From Pseudonocardia sp. SCN 73-27 (GTDB lineage Bacteria; Actinomycetota; Actinomycetes; Mycobacteriales; Pseudonocardiaceae), in assembly GCA_001725415.1 (NCBI GenBank), contig MEGH01000001.1, forward strand, positions 164,151 to 228,150: a stretch of DNA of 64,000 nucleotides, read 5' to 3'. The first letter of the stretch is position 1. Every line of letters begins with the position of its first letter. Positions 138-9,725 of this stretch are shown here, piece by piece. The translations under genes and the position numbers were made by a program. The notes below the pieces were generated by a model that did no database searches, had not been told where the DNA came from, and saw nothing but the letters and a program-made list of their open reading frames with translations.

Positions 138-674
138 CGTGACGGCCACCCGATGCTGTTCGCGATCGGGTTCGCCGCCACGTTCCTCCTCGGCGGGATG
201 ACCGGTGTCCTGCTCGCGTCCCCGCCGCTGGACTTCCACGTCACCGACACCTACTTCGTGGTGGCGCACTTCCACTACGTGCTGTTCGGGACGATCGTGT
301 TCGCGACGTTCTCCGGCATCTACTTCTGGTTCCCGAAGATGACCGGCCGGATGATGGACGAGACGCTGGGCAAGGTTCATTTCTGTCTGACGTTCGTCGG
401 CTTCCACGCGACGTTCCTGGTGCAGCACTGGCTGGGCAACGAGGGCATGCCCCGGCGTTACGCCGACTACCTGTCGTGCCCGCCGCCGCGGCACGACTTC
501 ACCGAGCTGCCCCGGATCCGGTCCGAGCGGCCGGCGTTCGAGCTGCACCACCCGCACCTGGTCGAGCAGTTCCTGCGCGAGGCACACGTCGACGGGCACC
601 CCGCTCCATCAGAGGCCGCAGCCGAGCGAGTGGGGCGCGAGGAGCAGCCCGATGCCGATCCGCGCTCGCGCTGA
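138..674 (+). pseudogene. ctaD: Cytochrome c oxidase subunit I (ctaD) remnant with internal in-frame deletion
   Basis: The reading frame encodes the late helices of aa3-type oxidase subunit [36 protein letters not shown] and [19 protein letters not shown]. Subunit I is the haem-copper catalytic subunit of the terminal oxidase, normally about 550-580 residues. Here the first two thirds, including the early haem-ligand histidines, are absent. Right after RRYADYL the frame jumps to [20 protein letters not shown], the extreme C-terminal tail. In the intact family these two segments are separated by the last membrane helix and a VDDPWGYG-type stretch of roughly 55-60 residues. The gene is therefore both 5'-truncated and internally deleted in frame. 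It cannot make a working oxidase subunit; an intact copy is presumably elsewhere in the genome. Confidence 0.85.
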
Positions 675-2159: not shown

Positions 2160-2330
2160 TTGTCTCCCCCTCCGCTCCCGGACCCCGGTGAGCCTGGGGG
2201 ACGGGCTTGAAAGTCCGCGCTGACCGAGCGGGAGGAATTAGGCCCTGCCGGTCGATCGAGGGCTTCAGCCGATCTCGGGATCGTCCCGGTCAACAGGGGC
2301 TTCCGTCCCGATGCGCCCCCAGGAGGGCGC

Positions 2331-2853
2331 TCAGCGGACGAGGAGCGTGGCCATCATGCCGGCGCGTCCTCGTGGTCGAGGATGTGGCAGTGGTAGACGC
2401 TGCGACCGGTACGGGTGTTGACCGGGATGCGTAGCCGCACCCACCCGCCCGGTGGCACGAGCACCACGTCCTGCGGCACGGCGGCCATGGGTCTCCCGTC
2501 GCTGGCCGCGACGACGGGTGAACGGCCAGACGTGCAGGTGGAAGGGGTGGGCGAGCGGGCCGGTATCGGTCACGGTCCAGTCTCCGACGGTGCCGTGATG
2601 ATCTGGTCGTCGCGGGCGGGATCGAAGGAGCGTTGGGGGAGCGGGTGGTGGTCGCGGAGGCAGGCGGGGGTTCGGCGGGCAAGGTGGCCGCAGCGCGGGT
2701 GTCGCCGCCGGGCCGTCGACGACCAAGGTCACGAGGGTGACCGGTCCTGTCGACACCGGTGGAGCGCCGCCCCATGCCGGCCATCGCGGGGCCCCGGTCG
2801 TAGGGGTTGGTGAGCAGGGTGAAGCGGCCGTGGCATTCGGGAGATGCGTTGAT
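2331..2853 (-). pseudogene. Multicopper oxidase remnant, multiply frameshifted
   Basis: On the minus strand three reading frames must be joined to recover the C-terminal third of a multicopper oxidase. One frame has GRFTLLTNPYDRG, the next VTLVVDGPAATPAL and later DWTVTDTGPLAHPFHLHVWP, and a third carries PQDVVLVPPGG followed by RSVYHCHILDHEDA. A last shift restores the end GMMATLLVR and stop. HPFHLH and HCH are the type 1/type 3 copper-binding motifs of periplasmic laccase/bilirubin-oxidase-like enzymes. At least three frameshifts and loss of the N-terminal two thirds (intact family about 450-500 residues) make this a dead gene. Such genes often follow a SHOCT-domain gene, and a SHOCT fragment lies immediately upstream. 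Confidence 0.75.
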
Positions 2854-2939
2854 CAGCCGCCGGCGCTGGGCGCGGCCGGGACGGTCGGCTGGTACTGGCG
2901 GCGGCGACTGATCGGCCGCGGGCTCGTCGCGACCGATCT

Positions 2940-3018
2940 TCCAGCACTGATCGCCGTCGGCGGTACTGCTGCTCGTCGATCTCACCGCGGGCGAACCGTT
3001 CGGCGAGTAGGCGGCGAG
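2940..3018 (-). pseudogene. SHOCT domain fragment
   Basis: The minus-strand frame contains LLAERFARGEIDEQQYRRR followed by SVLED, the short C-terminal oligomerisation (SHOCT) motif found at the end of many small actinobacterial membrane proteins. It is fused in frame to a TauE-like segment upstream and runs into the oxidase remnant downstream. No membrane segment of its own is present, so only the terminal motif of the original gene survives. Confidence 0.6.
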
Positions 3019-3374: not shown

Positions 3375-3593
3375 TCAGCGTGGCGTGGCCTCGATCCGCA
3401 GGGCGAGGGTGGGGCATGCCTCGACGGCGGCCCGGGCGTCGCGCTGGTCGTCGCGGCCCAGCGGCCGTCCGGTGCGGCCGTCGGCGAGGATGGGATAGCC
3501 CCATTCGTCCAGGTCGATGTGGTCGGGGAGAAGGTCTGCGCACAGCCCGTGCGCTGCGCAGGCGATCGGATCGACGCGTAGACGTTTGATCAT
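3375..3593 (-). CDS. Single-cluster ferredoxin, probably [3Fe-4S]
   Basis: 72 residues beginning MIKRLRVDPIACAAHGLCAD. The cysteine pattern is C-x2-H-G-x-C near residues 12-18 and one C-P at residue 60, i.e. three cysteines as in small actinobacterial ferredoxins with a [3Fe-4S] cluster (CxxHGxC...CP). These are soluble one-electron carriers. The ATG overlaps the stop codon of the NuoF-like gene by four bases (ATGA), so the two are translationally coupled and the ferredoxin is the likely redox partner. It is the last gene of the operon. Confidence 0.85.
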   Translation of the reverse strand: MIKRLRVDPIACAAHGLCADLLPDHIDLDEWGYPILADGRTGRPLGRDDQRDARAAVEACPTLALRIEATPR

Positions 3594-4912
3594 CGAAACT
3601 CCAGCGGGAAGATCATGGGAGCGCCCGCGGCGAGGCAGGGGCGACCGGTCAGGTGGTCGCGCAGGTCCGCGGAGAAGACGTCGAGAGCGGTCCGGGTGAG
3701 TCGTGCGGCGCCATCGGGCAGCGCACAGGCTCCTCTGCCGGTGACCAGGTCCAGTCGATGACGGAGGCGGTCGTGGGCGTGGCGGGCGTCGCGGGAGCCG
3801 GCGGCGATCGCGGCCAGATCGGCGGCGACGGCAGGGAGCCCGAACAGGCACGGTCCGCACTGGCCCGCCGACTGATCGGCGAGGAAGCGGACCAGCCGGG
3901 CGGTGTGGGCGAGCCCGCACGCGCCGGACGGCAGCGGAAGCAGTGTCGGGACGCCGAGCGCGGCACCTGCGGCGCGCATCGCGGTGTGCGTCAATGGCGT
4001 CTCGATCGCCGTCGCGGGCAGCCATGCACCGCCGTAGCCGCCGGACAGCACCGCCTGGACGTGTCCGGAGGGGCCGCCGCAGAGCTCGATGGCCGCCCGC
4101 ACGGTCGTCCCGGCGGCCACCTCGACCACCCCAGGGGTGTGGACGGCACCGTCGATGCTGACCAGCAGGGTGCCGGGTAGGTCGGGGGTACCCAGCTCGC
4201 GGAACCAGGGGGCGCCGTTGCGGGCTATGAGGGCGATGTGGGCGAGCGTCTCGATGTTGTCGACGAGCGTCGGGGCTCCTCCGACGCCGCGATCGGTGGG
4301 TCGTGGTGGGCTGGTCGTCGGCGTCGCCGGGCCGCCGGAGAGGAAGTTGACCAGTGCGGTCTCCTCGCTGGCGACGTAGCGGGCGGGGACGCCGCGCACC
4401 CGGACCGGGACCGGGCCCTGCCGTTGCGCTGCGAGAGTGCGCAGGCGTGGACCGGGGCCGTCGGGGCCGTCGTGGATGGCGAGGATCGCGGACTCGGCGC
4501 CGAGCGTGCGTGCGACGAGCTCGATGCCGTCGAGGACGAGATGGGGGGCGCAATCGAGCAGCGCGGCGTCCTTGCAGGAGGCCGGTTCTCCCTCGCACCC
4601 GTTGGCCACGACGACCGGGCGTCGGCGTCGGTCGGCGACCGCGCGCAGTTTGACCGAGGTCGGGAACCCTGCGCCTCCGCGCCCGCGCAGACCGGCGGCG
4701 TGGACGAGGTCGACGAGCTCGTCGGCGGTGAGATGCGGCAGTGGACCGTACCGACGTCGATGGGTGGTGAGATCGTCGGCACGTCCGCCGGCGGACCAGC
4801 CGGCGAGCAGGCGTGAGGGGCTCGGCGTGGCCGCCCGAGCCCGGGTTGGCTGCGGAGTGTGATCCGTTCGCGGAACGGTGTCGGCAAGGGGGTGCGTGCC
4901 GGTTGGGTTCAC
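3590..4912 (-). CDS. NuoF-like (complex I 51-kDa type) flavoprotein
   Basis: 440 residues resembling the NADH-binding subunit of complex I but encoded apart from nuo genes. Visible parts are GRGGAGFPTSVKLRAVA and NGCEGEPASCKDAALLD (FMN/NADH-binding fold, about residues 90-135), ASEETALVNFLSGG, VDNIETLAHIALIARNG, an SLBB-type region around residue 270, and a C-terminal cluster region SAGQCGPCLFGL with a later GRGACALPDGA. The complex I cluster uses four cysteines (SCGxCxPC plus one); here the first position is Ala, leaving three. The GTG start overlaps the previous stop (GTGA). Probable role: NAD(P)H-side electron input to the ferredoxin and to the membrane haem protein of this operon. Confidence 0.85.
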   Translation of the reverse strand: MNPTGTHPLADTVPRTDHTPQPTRARAATPSPSRLLAGWSAGGRADDLTTHRRRYGPLPHLTADELVDLVHAAGLRGRGGAGFPTSVKLRAVADRRRRPVVVANGCEGEPASCKDAALLDCAPHLVLDGIELVARTLGAESAILAIHDGPDGPGPRLRTLAAQRQGPVPVRVRGVPARYVASEETALVNFLSGGPATPTTSPPRPTDRGVGGAPTLVDNIETLAHIALIARNGAPWFRELGTPDLPGTLLVSIDGAVHTPGVVEVAAGTTVRAAIELCGGPSGHVQAVLSGGYGGAWLPATAIETPLTHTAMRAAGAALGVPTLLPLPSGACGLAHTARLVRFLADQSAGQCGPCLFGLPAVAADLAAIAAGSRDARHAHDRLRHRLDLVTGRGACALPDGAARLTRTALDVFSADLRDHLTGRPCLAAGAPMIFPLEFR

Positions 4913-5265
4913 GATGCTCCCGAGGTGACGTGAGAGATTCCCGGCGCTGTGTGCTGGGGCGCGAGCGTCGGCGGTTGCAGGCGTGATCCGCTTCCGACGT
5001 CTCCTCGACCGGCGACGGCCGATGGGCTGCCGTTCGGGGCGACGCTGTCGGGGGCCGTAGGTGTGTCGGAAGCGGTGATCGGATGGGCGAAGATCAGGGC
5101 GGCGACCGCGGTGGCGACGACGCCCCCTGTTGCGGTCCAGCTGGTGACGGTCCGGGTGCGACGCAGGCCCTCGTCGCGGGCGGCTCGGCGTGCACGGGGG
5201 TCGCGTGTCCCAGGGGCGCGGACGGGACGACCGCCGTTCGGCGGGGGTGTCCGGGTGGTGGTCAT
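4909..5265 (-). CDS. Small membrane-anchored protein with C-terminal SGAS, paralogue 2
   Basis: 118 residues with no recognised domain. It starts MTTTRTPPPNGG, has a basic stretch (RDPRARRAARDEGLRRTRT), one membrane segment SWTATGGVVATAVAALIFA around residues 41-60, and a Pro/Ser/Gly-rich outer tail ending exactly in SHVTSGAS. The layout (basic inside, one helix, low-complexity tail) is the same as the protein at 6830-7288, which shares the stretch GLRRxxTVTxWTAxGGxxAT and the ending SHxTSGxS. The terminal TSGAS resembles the S/T-G-A-S/T core of ApbE flavinylation sites, and apbE is in the same operon. Being a flavinylated carrier is an inference. The stop codon overlaps the GTG start of the NuoF-like gene. 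Confidence 0.75.
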   Translation of the reverse strand: MTTTRTPPPNGGRPVRAPGTRDPRARRAARDEGLRRTRTVTSWTATGGVVATAVAALIFAHPITASDTPTAPDSVAPNGSPSAVAGRGDVGSGSRLQPPTLAPQHTAPGISHVTSGAS

Positions 5266-5349
5266 GACCTCAGACAACCCGTCAATTCTTGGAGGTTCCG
5301 TGGGAGGTCGGAGTCGGTTCGGCACGCACAAGGTCACGGCGCACGGCGA

Positions 5350-5895
5350 TCACCTCAGGTGTTCGCTTCGCGATCCGTCGGACCAGATGAGTGCGCGCCA
5401 CAACAGGCCGGCGGTCGCGGCGGCGACGCAGCAGAGAGTCAGGACGAGGATCCACCCGGTCGTGGTGTCGGGGCCCCCGAGCCCGAGTCCGTGCACGACG
5501 GCGAGCGGCCAGCAGGCGTAGGCGGCCATGTGTACGACTCGCCAGGTCCGCAACCCTATCCGGGCGCGCAGCAGGCTGGTGAGGATCAGCGCGGCGAGCA
5601 GATCGAATGCGGCAGCGCCGAGGCCGAGCCAGAAAGCCTGGTAGCCCGAGGTGAAGGGGACGACGACGTCGACCCAGCGGATCGGCACGTAGCCGTCGAG
5701 CACGGCTGTGACGACGTGGAGCGCGACGAAGGCGACAGCCAGCAGAGAGGCGTTGCGGTGCAGGCGGGCCAGCGCGAACCGGGGCCAGCGCGCGGTCGCT
5801 GCGCGGGCGATGCCGGAGATACCGAGCACGAGGGTGGTCGTCAGCAGCACGAGCGAGACGAGGCCGGCGGCCCGGCTGGCGTACCAGGTCCACAT
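5350..5895 (-). CDS. Ferric-reductase-like transmembrane haem protein
   Basis: 181 residues with five to six membrane segments and no soluble flavin domain. Histidines in membrane positions (RLHRNASLL, ALHVVTAVL, RVVHMAAYA, AVVHGLGLGG) give the paired pattern expected for two b-type haems in the ferric reductase/MsrQ/YedZ superfamily. Its ATG shares one base with the apbE stop (TGATG). In the family such proteins pass electrons across the membrane; here that would link the cytosolic NuoF-like/ferredoxin side to an outer acceptor. Start chosen at MWTWYASRAAGLVSL because of the coupling and because the first helix follows directly. Confidence 0.8.
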   Translation of the reverse strand: MWTWYASRAAGLVSLVLLTTTLVLGISGIARAATARWPRFALARLHRNASLLAVAFVALHVVTAVLDGYVPIRWVDVVVPFTSGYQAFWLGLGAAAFDLLAALILTSLLRARIGLRTWRVVHMAAYACWPLAVVHGLGLGGPDTTTGWILVLTLCCVAAATAGLLWRALIWSDGSRSEHLR

Positions 5896-6833
5896 CAGAG
5901 ATCGCCTTCGTTCTCCGGCGGCCACTGACCGATGGTGCGGACCTGGCCGTCGTCGCCGACCAGCCGTGCGGGGAGGCCCGCGGTGGTGAGCCACCCGGGC
6001 GCGGCGGCTCCGAGCAGGAGTGAGGCGGTGGCGGCGATGTTGGCGTCGACGCAGGCGCCGGCGGCCACGGTGACGGTCCGCCAGCCACTCTGAGCAGGCA
6101 GCCCGGTACGTGGGTCGACCACGTGATGGCAGTGACGGCGGCCCCGCCGCCACCGTCGCCGAGTGGTGCCGGAGGTCGCCAGCCCGCCGGAGGCGAGGGA
6201 GATCACCGGGCCCGGGCCGGCCTGAGCGTGGTCGTCGGTGACATGTATCCGCCATCCGCCGGCCGGTGGAGGGCCTGCGACGGCGAGGTCACCGCCGAGG
6301 CTGATGAGTACTCCGCACCCGGTTCGCCCGGCGATCCGCGTGGCGGCCAGGTCGGCGGCCAGGGCTTTGGCGGTGGACCCGAGATCGATCCGGGTGCCGC
6401 GCGGGACGAGCAGCGAGCGATCGGCCGGGCTCCAGGCCAACCGCCACCATCCGGGCGCCGGCACGGGCACGATGTCGGCATCGGTGTCGGTGACCTCGGC
6501 GAGGTCCCGGTCGTAGCCGAGGGCGTCCATGCACGTGCCGACGGTCGGGTCGAGGAGGCCGTCGGTGATCCTGGCTGCGCGCAGCGCGGCGTCGAGGTGC
6601 ACTGCGAGGACGGCGCCCACCTGCACAGCGTGGCCGGCCTGGTGCTCGACAGTGCGGACCTCGGAGTCGGGCCGGAAGCGCGAGCATGCTCGGTCGAGAT
6701 CGTCGAGGTCCTGACGGAGCATCTCGACGGCGATCGGGAGGGCGATGCGGTCGGTGATCACCACGGTCGCGGTGGTCCCGATCGCGGGGAACGACTCGGA
6801 GGCATCGGGCCCGACGATCACCGGAGCCGTCAC
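5895..6833 (-). CDS. apbE: FAD:protein FMN transferase ApbE
   Basis: 312 residues covering the ApbE fold. Landmarks are DRACSRFRPDSEVRTV near residue 50, IDLGSTAKALAADLAAT near 170, GVLISLGGDLAVAGPPP, the GGLATSGTTRRRW segment and HHVVDPRTGLPA near 240. ApbE transfers FMN from FAD to a Ser/Thr in a D-x-x-[S/T]-G-A-[S/T] motif of extracytoplasmic redox proteins. No obvious signal peptide or lipobox is visible, so export is not assured, as in several actinobacterial ApbE proteins. The GTG start overlaps the stop of the small anchored protein upstream (GTGA). No canonical FMN-binding-domain (PF04205) substrate is encoded nearby; the two small anchored proteins are the only obvious candidates in the operon. 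Confidence 0.9.
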   Translation of the reverse strand: MTAPVIVGPDASESFPAIGTTATVVITDRIALPIAVEMLRQDLDDLDRACSRFRPDSEVRTVEHQAGHAVQVGAVLAVHLDAALRAARITDGLLDPTVGTCMDALGYDRDLAEVTDTDADIVPVPAPGWWRLAWSPADRSLLVPRGTRIDLGSTAKALAADLAATRIAGRTGCGVLISLGGDLAVAGPPPAGGWRIHVTDDHAQAGPGPVISLASGGLATSGTTRRRWRRGRRHCHHVVDPRTGLPAQSGWRTVTVAAGACVDANIAATASLLLGAAAPGWLTTAGLPARLVGDDGQVRTIGQWPPENEGDL

Positions 6834-7288
6834 GAGGAGCCCGAGGTGGCGTGGGAGTAGCTGCGGACCGTCGGAGGGGACACCGGTGCAACCGGTGCCG
6901 CGGGCGGCTGCAGCCCCTGCCCGGACGCTCCCTGCCCGGACGCTCCCTGCCCACTCGGCGACTGCCCAGCCGATCCTGACGACGAGTGATGGGTGGTGTG
7001 TGAGCGCCGTGGAGCCGGGATGGATGTGGTCGGGGCGGCGGTGTCGGGGTTCACGCTCTGGCCGGGGGAGACATCGCCCGGGGAGTCCTGGCTGCCGAGG
7101 GTGGGAGCGGTCGGGATCGTGTCGGCGGCGGCGTCGGAGGTCTGGGCGCCGGCGGGGCTCTGCGCGAGCACGAACGCGGCGAGCGCGGTGGCCGCGGCAC
7201 CGCCGACCGCAGTCCAGGTCGTGACCGTCGAGGCGCGGCGCAGGCCCCGGTCACGAGCGTCGGCGCGGATGCGTTGTGACTCGTTCAC
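6830..7288 (-). CDS. Small membrane-anchored protein with C-terminal SGSS, paralogue 1
   Basis: 152 residues from a GTG at 7286-7288. A charged N-terminus (SQRIRADARDRGLRRAST) precedes one membrane helix (TWTAVGGAAATALAAFVLA) that may also be a cleavable signal (SPAGAQT). The tail is low complexity with tandem GQGAS/SGQ units (residues about 107-125) and Pro-rich runs, ending SYSHATSGSS. It is a paralogue of the protein at 4909-5265 and is the first gene of the operon. No known domain. The conserved feature besides the anchor is the C-terminal SH-x-TSG-x-S, which lies where an ApbE-type acceptor would have to be. Start is supported by paralogue alignment, with only a weak G-rich ribosome site. 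Confidence 0.7.
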   Translation of the reverse strand: MNESQRIRADARDRGLRRASTVTTWTAVGGAAATALAAFVLAQSPAGAQTSDAAADTIPTAPTLGSQDSPGDVSPGQSVNPDTAAPTTSIPAPRRSHTTHHSSSGSAGQSPSGQGASGQGASGQGLQPPAAPVAPVSPPTVRSYSHATSGSS

Positions 7289-7413
7289 GCGCCCCACCCA
7301 ACTCCGGTGTTCTTGGAGAATCCTGGGTATCACTGCACCCGGCTGGAGCATCCGAGGTCGGCGCATGCAGGTCCGCCGCGGTGAGCGAGGTGGCGCGGCG
7401 GCCGACGCGGTCC

Positions 7414-7863
7414 ATGATTGCCGCCGTGACCACCGAACCCGGACATGACGTCGCCGCGCACATCGGCCGGCCGTGGGTGCTGCTCGTCGAGGACGAGGCG
7501 GAGTTGGCGGGGACGCTGCCGGTCGGCGCCGCCCGCTTGGCGCTGGACGCGCGCGAGGTCGTCGCGGGTTCGACACGGACTGCGTTGTCGCAGCGCGAAT
7601 GCGACCTGCTCGCGGCGTTGGCGGCGCGGCCGCGGCAGGTGTTCGGGCGTGACGACCTGCTGGCGCCGGCGTTCCAGGAGGCGGAGAACCCGGTGGTCGT
7701 CGACACCTGTGTGCACGACCTGCGGCGCAAGCTCGGTCGCGGTGTCGTCGAGACCGTTCGCGGCCGGGGCTACCGCCTCGGCACACCTCTCCCGGAGGCA
7801 GACGGTCCGGACGGCAGCTCGACGGACGGCGCGGGCGCTACCGCCGACCGGCCGCTCGGATGA
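7414..7863 (+). CDS. OmpR/PhoB-type regulator lacking its receiver core
   Basis: About 149 residues. It opens like a response regulator (WVLLVEDEAELAGTL, acidic pocket D-E) but the next residues PVGAARLALDAREVV belong to the start of the winged-helix effector domain. Roughly 100 residues, including the phospho-acceptor aspartate and switch residues, are missing in frame. The DNA-binding domain is complete: ALSQRECDLLAALAARP, QVFGRDDLLAPAF, VVVDTCVHDLRRKLG and ETVRGRGYRLG. It would bind DNA without phosphorylation control, or be inactive. The stop overlaps the ATG of the histidine kinase gene. It lies divergent to the flavin redox operon and may have controlled it. The ATG at 7414 and a GTG at 7426 are both possible starts. 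Confidence 0.75.
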   Translation: MIAAVTTEPGHDVAAHIGRPWVLLVEDEAELAGTLPVGAARLALDAREVVAGSTRTALSQRECDLLAALAARPRQVFGRDDLLAPAFQEAENPVVVDTCVHDLRRKLGRGVVETVRGRGYRLGTPLPEADGPDGSSTDGAGATADRPLG

Positions 7864-9107
7864 CTCGCGGTGGCGCCACGGGCGAAGCCGTTCTCGCCCG
7901 GCGTGCCGCCGTGCGGCTCGGGGTGCAGGCTGCGGTGCTCGCGGGACTGATCGTCGTCGCGTTGACGGCGGTGGCCATCGTGGTCCTGCTCGACGCGCAG
8001 CGAACCCAGGTCGGCGCGGCGTTGCAGGAGGCGATCGACCGTGCGGACGACGCCACGGACCCGCCTGCGGGCATGTTCCTGGTGTTGCGTGAGCCGACCG
8101 GGTCGGTGAGAGCGACCCCGAGGCTGCCAACCGGTGTCGCGGACCCGAACAGCCTCTCACTGGCCGCAGACGGAGCATCGGTACCGACGAGGGAGCGCAG
8201 TGTTCGTGGGGTGCGGTACGAGATCGCGACGCAGTTGCGTGACGACGGCGTCACCGTCCAGGCGATCCTCGACCTGACGGCCAACCACAGCGCACGCAAC
8301 CAGCTCCTCGCCACCATGTTCGCCACCGGGCTCGCCGGGCTCCTCGTGGCCGGGGCGGCCGGGACCTGGCTCGGCCGCCGGGCCCTGACCCCGCTCTCGG
8401 GTGCGCTGTCGCTGCAACGACGCTTCGTCGCCGACGCGGGCCACGAACTGCGGACCCCGCTGACGTTGCTCGGCACTCGCGCGCAGCTGCTGCGCAGGCG
8501 CCTGCGCCGTGATCCCGACGCCGATCCGCAGCTGCTCGCGGAGGTCGAGGGTGTCGTCAGCGACGCGGGCCGACTCACCGCGATCCTCGAGGACCTGTTG
8601 CTCGCCGCCGATCCGTTGGGCGTGCGGCCCCGCGAGCCGGTGGACCTGGCCGAGCTGTGCCGCGACGTGCTCGCCGCCGCGGCAGCCGCCGCCGAGGACC
8701 GAGGCATCGAGTTGCGGCTCGACGTCGAAGGAGCCGTGCGGGCCGTCGGATCCACGGCGGCCCTGCGTCGGGCGGTCACCGCGCTGATCGACAACGCCGT
8801 GCGGCACGCGACCCACACCGTCGACGTCAGGGTGCGCTCCGAGGGTGCCACCGCCGCCCTCGAGGTCGCCGATGACGGGAGCGGCGTCGATCCGGCGGTG
8901 GCGCCTCGGCTGTTCGAACGGTTCGCCACGGCCGCTCGGCCGGGGGAGTCGGGTGAGCGTCGCTACGGTCTCGGCCTCGCCCTCGTGGCGGAGATCGCAA
9001 CCGCCCACGAGGGCCGGGTGACACTCCTGGGCACCACCGGCGGCGCCACGTTCCGGCTCTCGATTCCCGCCGCCGACCCGTCTTCACAGCCTCCAAGGAA
9101 GCTCTGA
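7860..9107 (+). CDS. Membrane sensor histidine kinase
   Basis: 415 residues. A first membrane helix (VQAAVLAGLIVVALTAVAIV, about residues 22-42), an outer sensor region to about residue 145, a second helix (LLATMFATGLAGLLVAG), then the phospho-acceptor box FVADAGHELRTPLTLL near residue 190. The HATPase has the N box LIDNAVRHATH, a G1 motif VADDGSGVDP, and YGLGLALV. HAMP is short or absent. It is the ordinary partner of the adjacent OmpR-type regulator (ATGA overlap), but that regulator now lacks the phosphorylation site, so the kinase either signals elsewhere or is stranded. Confidence 0.9.
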   Translation: MTRGGATGEAVLARRAAVRLGVQAAVLAGLIVVALTAVAIVVLLDAQRTQVGAALQEAIDRADDATDPPAGMFLVLREPTGSVRATPRLPTGVADPNSLSLAADGASVPTRERSVRGVRYEIATQLRDDGVTVQAILDLTANHSARNQLLATMFATGLAGLLVAGAAGTWLGRRALTPLSGALSLQRRFVADAGHELRTPLTLLGTRAQLLRRRLRRDPDADPQLLAEVEGVVSDAGRLTAILEDLLLAADPLGVRPREPVDLAELCRDVLAAAAAAAEDRGIELRLDVEGAVRAVGSTAALRRAVTALIDNAVRHATHTVDVRVRSEGATAALEVADDGSGVDPAVAPRLFERFATAARPGESGERRYGLGLALVAEIATAHEGRVTLLGTTGGATFRLSIPAADPSSQPPRKL

Positions 9108-9161
9108 GATTGCGCCGCGACGATCGGAGCCGTACCTGACCGACTGCGGAAGGCCTGATCG

Positions 9162-9725
9162 TTGCCCACGTTCATGTTCGGACTTCCGTTGCACCCCTTG
9201 GTGGTCCACGCGGTCATCGTGTTGGTCCCGGCGGCCGTGATCGGATCGGTGCTGGTCGCGGTGTGGCCGCGCGTCCGTGCCCGGTGGGCATGGCCGGTCG
9301 TCGCGCTCACCGCCATGGCGACGCTCGCCATCCCCGTCGCCACCAGCACCGGGGAAGGCCTGGAACGCAACATCCCCCGCACCCCGTCGATCCAGGCGCA
9401 CGTCGAGCTGGGGGACCAGCTGCTGGTCTTCGTCGCCGCGATGCTGGTGTGCGTGGCGGCACTCGTGGCGCTCGACCGCATGCGCCGCCGTCGCACCGCG
9501 GACGCGACGCTGGCCGCACACCGGGCCGGACCCGGCACCATGGCCGCGCCGCGGATCCGCGATGGTCAGGCCCAGGTAGCCGCCCTCGTGCTGGCCGTGC
9601 TCACGGTAGGGTTCGCGCTGGTGTCGGCGGTGCAGGTCGTCCGCATCGGTGACAGTGGCGCCCGCGCCGCGTGGGGGAGTCTCCAGTACGCGCCGCAGCC
9701 ATGGCCGGTCGGGCGTGACGGGTGA
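9162..9725 (+). CDS. DUF2231-type four-helix membrane protein
   Basis: About 187 residues with four predicted membrane helices. The opening MFGLPLHPLVVHAVIVLVP carries the HPxxVH pair of histidines typical of DUF2231 proteins, which are thought to be haem or quinone associated but are uncharacterised. A second region SIQAHVELGDQLLVFVAAML is also family-like. The TTG start at 9162 follows GCGGAAGG at a normal distance; an ATG at 9174 is an alternative. It follows the histidine kinase by about 55 bases and may be co-transcribed. Confidence 0.7.
   Translation: MPTFMFGLPLHPLVVHAVIVLVPAAVIGSVLVAVWPRVRARWAWPVVALTAMATLAIPVATSTGEGLERNIPRTPSIQAHVELGDQLLVFVAAMLVCVAALVALDRMRRRRTADATLAAHRAGPGTMAAPRIRDGQAQVAALVLAVLTVGFALVSAVQVVRIGDSGARAAWGSLQYAPQPWPVGRDG

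Follow-up and report, generated by a model that had tools for sequence, protein, structure and literature searches.

Small tail proteins beside apbE as candidate domain-less flavin acceptors in Pseudonocardia and other Actinomycetota

ApbE, the FAD:protein FMN transferase, modifies a Ser or Thr in a short motif of its substrates. The substrates described are FMN_bind, NqrB/RnfD, DUF2271 and DUF3570, together with Flavodoxin_4 and FMN_red, which were added by a 2024 follow-up (PMC8238504; PMC11334425). MsrQ-like flavinylation systems combine ApbE with a haem protein of family PF01794 and are broadly conserved in Actinobacteria (Meheust et al. 2021, PMC8238504). That survey reports 31 clusters with a NuoF-like protein, finds that the systems typically include an FMN-binding-domain protein, and leaves less prevalent ApbE substrates to be identified. 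A 2025 review covers the motif, cytosolic ApbEs and an engineered terminal tag, the Flavin-tag of Tong et al., a terminal seven-residue motif that ApbE flavinylates well (PMC12052999). In this study, we focused on an apbE operon in a 64,000-nucleotide stretch of Pseudonocardia sp. SCN 73-27 (contig MEGH01000001.1, positions 164,151 to 228,150; the window).

Two marks of the MsrQ-like systems are found in this operon: a PF01794 protein with conserved haem-type His residues beside apbE, and a NuoF-like protein as the NAD(P)H-linked cytosolic partner. The third, an FMN-binding-domain protein in the cluster, is absent. The first-pass annotation of the window had noted that no such domain is encoded here, and this holds genome-wide, as PF04205 (FMN_bind) has no match in the source genome; nor does any lie near the operon in 24 operon-bearing genomes. 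The operon encodes two small anchored proteins of the same plan, whose ends, SHATSGSS and SHVTSGAS, are confirmed by the translations. We consider it very probable, judging from sequence comparison, that the tails of such proteins are flavinylated by ApbE, whichever side of the membrane they face.

The C-terminal motif of the small proteins

Relatives of the operon were collected from two sources. A search for the operon ApbE in 150 family genomes gave some match in 42 and a match at E <= 1e-34 (operon-type) in 27; of the 20 regions retrieved, two are the paralogous loci of the source genome. An alignment of 18 ApbEs (A1) led to 593 pattern matches, 572 of them confirmed; the best 80 of the 572 were used (named loci), and counts from them describe near relatives of the operon ApbE, not ApbEs in general. 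A protein with the strict ending [ST]G[AGS][ST]-COOH was found in 83 of these 100 loci, or in 81 of 98 distinct loci after removal of duplicates (L056 equals L044, and L086 equals L042). In 20/20 operons of the family set, [ST]G[AGS]S is the exact end of a small protein that precedes apbE. Among the named loci the strict ending is present in 63/80, namely 61 adjacent proteins, less that of L107, discounted as spurious because it has neither operon nor anchor, plus three displaced ones (L084 and L117, about 4-5 kb upstream; L121, 256 nt). Variant ends are found in 12 named loci (L058, L066, L070, L079, L087, L091, L092, L100, L102, L105, L112 and L129). No tail protein was found in five: L065, L088, L107, L113 and L111. 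Of these, L088, L107 and L113 have no MsrQ-like match, and L111, from a Chloroflexi metagenome-assembled genome (MAG), is cut by a contig end.

The strict ending is rare elsewhere. Random windows of equal size in the same loci held an open reading frame (ORF) with this ending in 80/38427 cases (0.2%), and 20 of the 14207 other six-frame ORFs of at least 35 aa in the 100 loci end in this way. Twenty control apbE genes were taken from an order-level apbE survey; one has a strict-ending upstream protein (L150, itself operon-like). The count is 0/18 without L150 (NuoF-like and ferredoxin genes, end DASTGAS) and L166 (weak MsrQ-like match, end STSHAS), both removed after counting; for several of the 18 the apbE start is an estimate.

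Small proteins were also picked blind to the motif, by hydrophobic segment, charge and codon bias only, in the 92 loci with an MsrQ-like match, which gave 76 picks and left 16 loci without one. The strict ending is present in 66 of the 76 picks, and the final residue is Ser or Thr in 73. Their last seven residues are the most conserved among the last 20, with 1.06-2.30 bits at positions -1 to -7 and 0.24-0.88 bits at -8 to -20; the maximum in 2000 random draws of tail positions was 0.41 bits. Thus, the expectation that the terminal motif is the most conserved part of these proteins is borne out within the tail. It is not the sole conserved part, because R12 and T23 near the N-terminus are invariant, as are G150 and S152, in an alignment of 21 small proteins (A2).

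These counts bear on the view that the proteins are ordinary low-complexity surface proteins whose Ser/Gly-rich ends look motif-like through composition. The tails do consist to 79% of S, T, G, P, A or Q. However, conservation centres on the last seven residues, where it is far above that of random tail positions, the ending is scarce in random windows, and the position beside apbE is conserved. Chance and composition are ruled out by the random windows, the other ORFs and the randomly drawn tail positions, and we regard this explanation as scarcely credible.

The ending is H-x-x-S-G-[AS]-S in the window and mostly [H/D/V/Q]-x-x-[S/T]-G-[A/G]-S in the relatives. The textbook acceptor motif, D-x-x-[S/T]-G-A-[S/T], stands at the very C-terminus of L150 (D-A-S-T-G-A-S) and in nine of the 14 Streptomyces loci (D-S-T-S-G-A-S), which are close relatives and not nine independent cases. 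Compared with it, His replaces Asp in both window proteins, and Ser replaces Ala in one; in a known motif, an Asp-to-Ala change is reported to have minor effects only (PMC12052999). Position -7 of the picks is H in 26, V in 13, Q in 11 and D in 10. In 79 motif-filtered proteins, L107 and L150 included, the figures are H 27, V 14, D 12 and Q 10, and no other position outside the filter is as informative; Asp occurs there in the nine Streptomyces loci, L052, L078 and L150. The Ala that the first-pass annotation took as part of the acceptor core does not extend to most relatives, since position -2 of the picks is Gly in 43 and Ala in 28.

The anatomy of the 97 called proteins is given here as description and not as a test, because their start codons were guessed and the ending rule was widened after the data had been seen. 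They are 67-192 aa long (median 108) and have one N-terminal hydrophobic segment, which is almost absent in L118. A lipobox-like match was seen in 1/97, and lipoprotein anchoring was rejected. A Pfam scan of 21 small proteins (20 from the family and L054) gave no match at E <= 0.01, and none of the known substrate domains FMN_bind, DUF2271, DUF3570, Flavodoxin_4 and FMN_red was found among them. Scattered NCBIfam matches to the A2 proteins, none stronger than 2e-4, are apparently noise from low-complexity sequence. In the window, neither protein has a Pfam or NCBIfam family above cut-off, the sole Pfam match of the first being a sub-threshold one to Autoind_bind (E 0.11); they share 41% identity. 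Two small proteins (L072, 4775-5104; L130, 5573-5965) have a second, internal motif match and possibly carry more than one flavin.

The operon ApbE, its co-occurrence and its redox partners

The small proteins follow the transferase across genomes. A profile built from the 21 A2 proteins was applied to the same 150 genomes (cut E <= 3.5e-5). Operon-type apbE is present in 27 of them, and in 26 of the 27 the profile matched next to it; 23 of the 26 matches extend to the profile C-terminus. Outside the 16 genomes used to build the profile, the protein was found in 10 of 11 operon genomes. The missed genome, G077, has the small protein with the end STSHAS (L166). Only one of the other 123 genomes passes the cut (G031), with a partial match that lacks the C-terminus; at E <= 0.01, 73/150 genomes match, and the weaker matches among them were left uncounted. 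The first-pass annotation had proposed that the small proteins may be flavin carriers served by apbE, and both the conserved ends and this co-occurrence agree with the proposal; that the flavin is covalently bound FMN is what we infer from them.

The product of the window apbE gene is, on domain grounds, a predicted FMN transferase, and its relatives of known structure include 1vrm, 4xdt, 4ifu and 6nxi. The active-site residues S221 and H237 are each present in 103/103 sequences (window, 100 loci, L150 and L166). Position 265 is Asn in 101/103 and Glu in 2/103, whereas 18 other ApbEs have Asp (15), Ala (2) or Glu (1). In the alignment to 4xdt and 1vrm, Asn265 falls on the Asp of the aDaLaTA segment, and we take this site to correspond to Asp285 of Vibrio cholerae ApbE, one of three conserved active-site residues (PMC12052999; the metal site is covered in PMC4767422). 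A link between the Asn and the carboxylate of a C-terminal acceptor is speculation. Against it, no tail protein was found near the Asn-type apbE of L088, L107 and L113, and a tail protein accompanies an ApbE with Glu in L150 and L166.

It is also conceivable that the tail is a docking or regulatory peptide for ApbE or for the membrane haem protein, and that the true flavin acceptor is encoded elsewhere. The exchange of the active-site Asp for Asn would suit this explanation, as would the fact that flavinylation is inferred and that some members depart from the known motif. FMN_bind proteins could supply the acceptor. Of the 24 operon genomes tested (G057, G077 and G148 of the 27 were left out), 18 have one, and so do 25/36 genomes of a second set (15/19 of those reached via named loci). 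In the 18 genomes, however, it is separated from the operon by about 90 kb or more, or is on a different contig, and the remaining six have none, so that an FMN_bind partner inside the operon is ruled out for the 24. The source genome, moreover, has three such ApbEs and no candidate of this kind. Two further points speak against a mere docking role, which we consider improbable: the nine Streptomyces loci and L150 agree with the acceptor consensus residue by residue, and nearly all motif-blind picks have Ser or Thr where the acceptor would be.

The redox partners are conserved as well. MsrQ-like and NuoF-like genes are each found in 19 of the 20 family operons, L045 being the case in which the contig end comes first, and in 92 and 88 of the 100 loci, respectively. 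Four His residues of the MsrQ-like protein (46, 60, 122 and 135) are each kept in 92 or 93 of 93 sequences, and for this reason the protein probably binds two b-haems; no relative of it was found in PDB by sequence. Cys 332, 352, 355, 396 and 426 of the NuoF-like protein are kept in 85 or 86 of 89 sequences. In the ferredoxin, Cys 12 and 18 are present in 85/85 and Cys 60 in 84/85, and its three cysteines presumably hold a [3Fe-4S] cluster.

Proposed electron path, membrane side and extent of the class

We propose that the small proteins are minimal ApbE substrates. The basic N-terminus and the single transmembrane segment would serve as the anchor of a flexible tail in which Ser, Ala, Thr, Pro and Gly abound and which ends exactly in what would be the ApbE recognition sequence. 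The neighbouring ApbE would transfer FMN from FAD to the last Ser, placing the flavin at the free end of the tether. Electrons might then pass from NADH through the NuoF-like protein and the three-cysteine ferredoxin, cross the MsrQ-like protein by way of its two haems and reach the tethered FMN. The FMN would swing to a final acceptor, most likely outside the membrane. Rough gene clustering in the 100 loci, with a crude gene caller, gave no convincing conserved acceptor gene beside the operon; one group without assigned identity recurs in 43 loci, and the Streptomyces loci share chromosomal neighbours.

The outward direction of the tail is suggested by charge. In the called proteins, the N side has a mean net charge of +4.0 and the C side one of -0.4, and the N side is the more positive in 91/97. 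By the positive-inside rule, this pattern would put the N-terminus in the cytosol and the tail outside. The transferase itself is probably inside. The small-protein stop lies no more than 80 nt from the ApbE domain in 92/97 loci, and an 11-residue stretch of high hydropathy precedes the domain in 2/97 (a hydropathy criterion, not a signal-peptide program); a signal peptide is therefore unlikely. The main rival to an outward tail is a flavin-tagged tail on the inner face, where it would pass electrons from the NuoF-like protein and ferredoxin to the MsrQ-like protein, at its inner haem. This arrangement would resolve the puzzle of the signal-less ApbE, and both donors are soluble and cytosolic by family, but the charge pattern, with its guessed starts, argues against it. 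We consider it unlikely, and count it within the flavinylated tail, not beside it. With an outward tail, modification before export is the simplest way to reconcile an ApbE inside with a tail outside. Tat export as the explanation was tried and is unsupported, a formal Tat motif being present in 14/97 small proteins (twin Arg in 74/97).

Several points weigh against a flavinylated, outward-facing tail. The flavin is a prediction for every one of the small proteins. The modification before export that an outward tail would need is an added demand, and Asn in place of a usually conserved Asp near the active site could alter ApbE activity. Ends deviate to S-[SA]-G-S in five Nocardia/Prescottella loci, SGQS in L058, SAAS in L066, THGS in L112 and ATRAS on an Arthrobacter plasmid. 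In L070 and L100 the motif is followed by 2-5 further residues. Many members combine the absence of Asp at -7 with Gly at -2, combinations outside those tested in the literature examined. L065 has the operon with no tail protein found, and L061 has a tail protein and an MsrQ-like gene with no NuoF-like or ferredoxin match within 12.9 kb. On a Streptomyces plasmid, an apbE with a 2Fe-2S partner follows two small proteins without the tail motif.

In spread, the named loci come from Pseudonocardia, Amycolatopsis, Streptomyces, Nocardia, Frankia and others, and from MAGs labelled Acidimicrobiia, Solirubrobacterales, Dormibacterota and others. Among plasmids, 114 records gave some ApbE match and three were viewed; besides the Streptomyces plasmid, those of Rhodococcus and Arthrobacter have the matching gene order, the small gene being labelled 'hypothetical protein' (the Rhodococcus protein ends in SHARSAGS). 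Wider surveys gave apbE matches in 113/298 genomes of the order and 193/394 of the class. In L100 and L126, a tail protein and apbE occur with no MsrQ-like or NuoF-like match in the available stretch, and perhaps represent a different module; with redox partners partly or wholly undetected in L061, L100 and L126, the module may vary.

We lean, with little to spare, towards a large undescribed class of natural domain-less ApbE substrates. Each would consist of an anchor in the membrane, a disordered tether and an FMN carried by the terminal residue. The class would be served by its own ApbE clade, where Asn replaces the active-site Asp, perhaps to make room for the free carboxylate of a C-terminal acceptor. 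The class would extend across Actinomycetota (Pseudonocardia, Amycolatopsis, Streptomyces, Nocardia, Frankia, Acidimicrobiia and Solirubrobacterales) and Dormibacterota, and its members may be the commonest partner of 'orphan' apbE genes there.

Operon layout, neighbourhood and comparison with known systems

The six genes are coupled, as the first-pass annotation had described, and lie on the minus strand (Table 1). Four junctions overlap, as GTGA (first small gene and apbE), TGATG (apbE and msrQ-like), GTGA (second small gene and nuoF-like) and ATGA (nuoF-like and ferredoxin); the fifth, between the msrQ-like and second small gene, is an 84-nt gap unless an upstream GTG is the start. The pairing of small proteins, which that annotation had treated as a feature of the operon, turned out to be an exception, no second copy being found in the 100 other loci under the criteria applied. 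The source genome (6.95 Mb; listed completeness 99.99%, contamination 4.16%) has three apbE genes in three operons of this type. Directly upstream of the other two apbE genes lies a small anchored protein ending in SHATSGAS (L001) or SHARSGAS (L002), and both paralogous loci (L034, L035) also have MsrQ-like, NuoF-like and ferredoxin genes. All four small proteins of the three loci thus end in S-H-x-x-S-G-x-S.

Table 1. Genes of the operon, with window positions that include the stop codons
Gene or product	Position	Strand	Features and proposed role
Small protein 1 (P0001, 152 aa)	6830..7288	-	Basic N-terminus, one hydrophobic segment, low-complexity tail, end SYSHATSGSS; proposed FMN carrier
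apbE, predicted FAD:protein FMN transferase (P0002, 312 aa)	5895..6833	-	Pfam ApbE 7e-50
MsrQ/ferric-reductase-like membrane protein (P0003, 181 aa)	5350..5895	-	Pfam PF01794 (Ferric_reduct) 1.7e-8
Small protein 2 (P0004, 118 aa)	4909..5265	-	Same plan as P0001, end GISHVTSGAS
NuoF-like protein (P0005, 440 aa)	3590..4912	-	Complex1_51K, SLBB and NADH_4Fe-4S; FMN/NADH domain; proposed NADH entry
Three-cysteine ferredoxin (P0006, 72 aa)	3375..3593	-	Fer4_15 3e-11; proposed relay to the membrane haem protein

The operon adjoins a divergent response-regulator gene (7276-7863, plus strand), in which Pfam finds only the DNA-binding Trans_reg_C domain and which seems to lack a receiver domain; the regulator beside the paralogous operon in L001 looks intact by eye. 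A histidine kinase and then a DUF2231 membrane protein follow (7860-9725, plus strand), and a kinase/regulator pair also adjoins the operon on the Rhodococcus plasmid. On that plasmid (L197), a VIT family gene lies near the operon (8160-8906), which fits the iron link suggested for some MsrQ-like systems (PMC8238504). Downstream of the window operon, multicopper oxidase-like remnants with broken frames (HPFHLHVWPF) were seen by eye at 2290-2990 (minus strand). A fragment resembling cytochrome c oxidase subunit I was seen by eye at 153-674 (plus strand).

If the tails are flavinylated, these proteins would be the ones modified by some 'orphan' apbE genes in part of a large phylum. A flavin would then need no binding domain to act as a natural electron carrier, a bare tether being enough, as in the engineered tag. 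The operon would represent a simple module for electron transfer. Very small flavinylation tags of natural origin could be taken from it, together with an ApbE able to use a C-terminal residue as acceptor. How a seemingly cytosolic ApbE modifies a seemingly exported tail would be a further question.

Our literature search, whose coverage left out bioRxiv, supplements and most subscription papers, found no report of a C-terminal, domain-less ApbE substrate. Lipoyl and biotinyl swinging arms also move a covalent cofactor between partners on a flexible tether. They are side chains of folded domains, whereas here the whole tail would be the arm and the cofactor a flavin. The locus shares ApbE, the PF01794 haem protein and the NuoF-like partner with the MsrQ-like systems and differs from their typical form in having no FMN-binding-domain protein. 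No tail substrate is described in the examined text of the survey of those systems, supplements aside (PMC8238504). For a cluster to pass the survey filter, a signal peptide or lipid site had to be predicted in one of ApbE, FMN-bind, DUF2271 and DUF3570. An operon whose ApbE has no signal and which encodes none of the other three should fail this filter, and the signal-less ApbE may be the reason that this class is missing there. In the known substrates, too, ApbE modifies a Ser or Thr in an [S/T]GA[S/T]-like motif, and the predicted sites of FMN_red even lie on an unstructured C-terminal extension (PMC11334425). Those substrates are tied to a folded domain or membrane core, however, whereas the small proteins have no known domain and their acceptor would be the last residue. 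The closest likeness in form is with the Flavin-tag, also a bare seven-residue motif at a protein terminus; the tag is man-made, and the tails described here would be its equivalent in nature, serving electron transfer.

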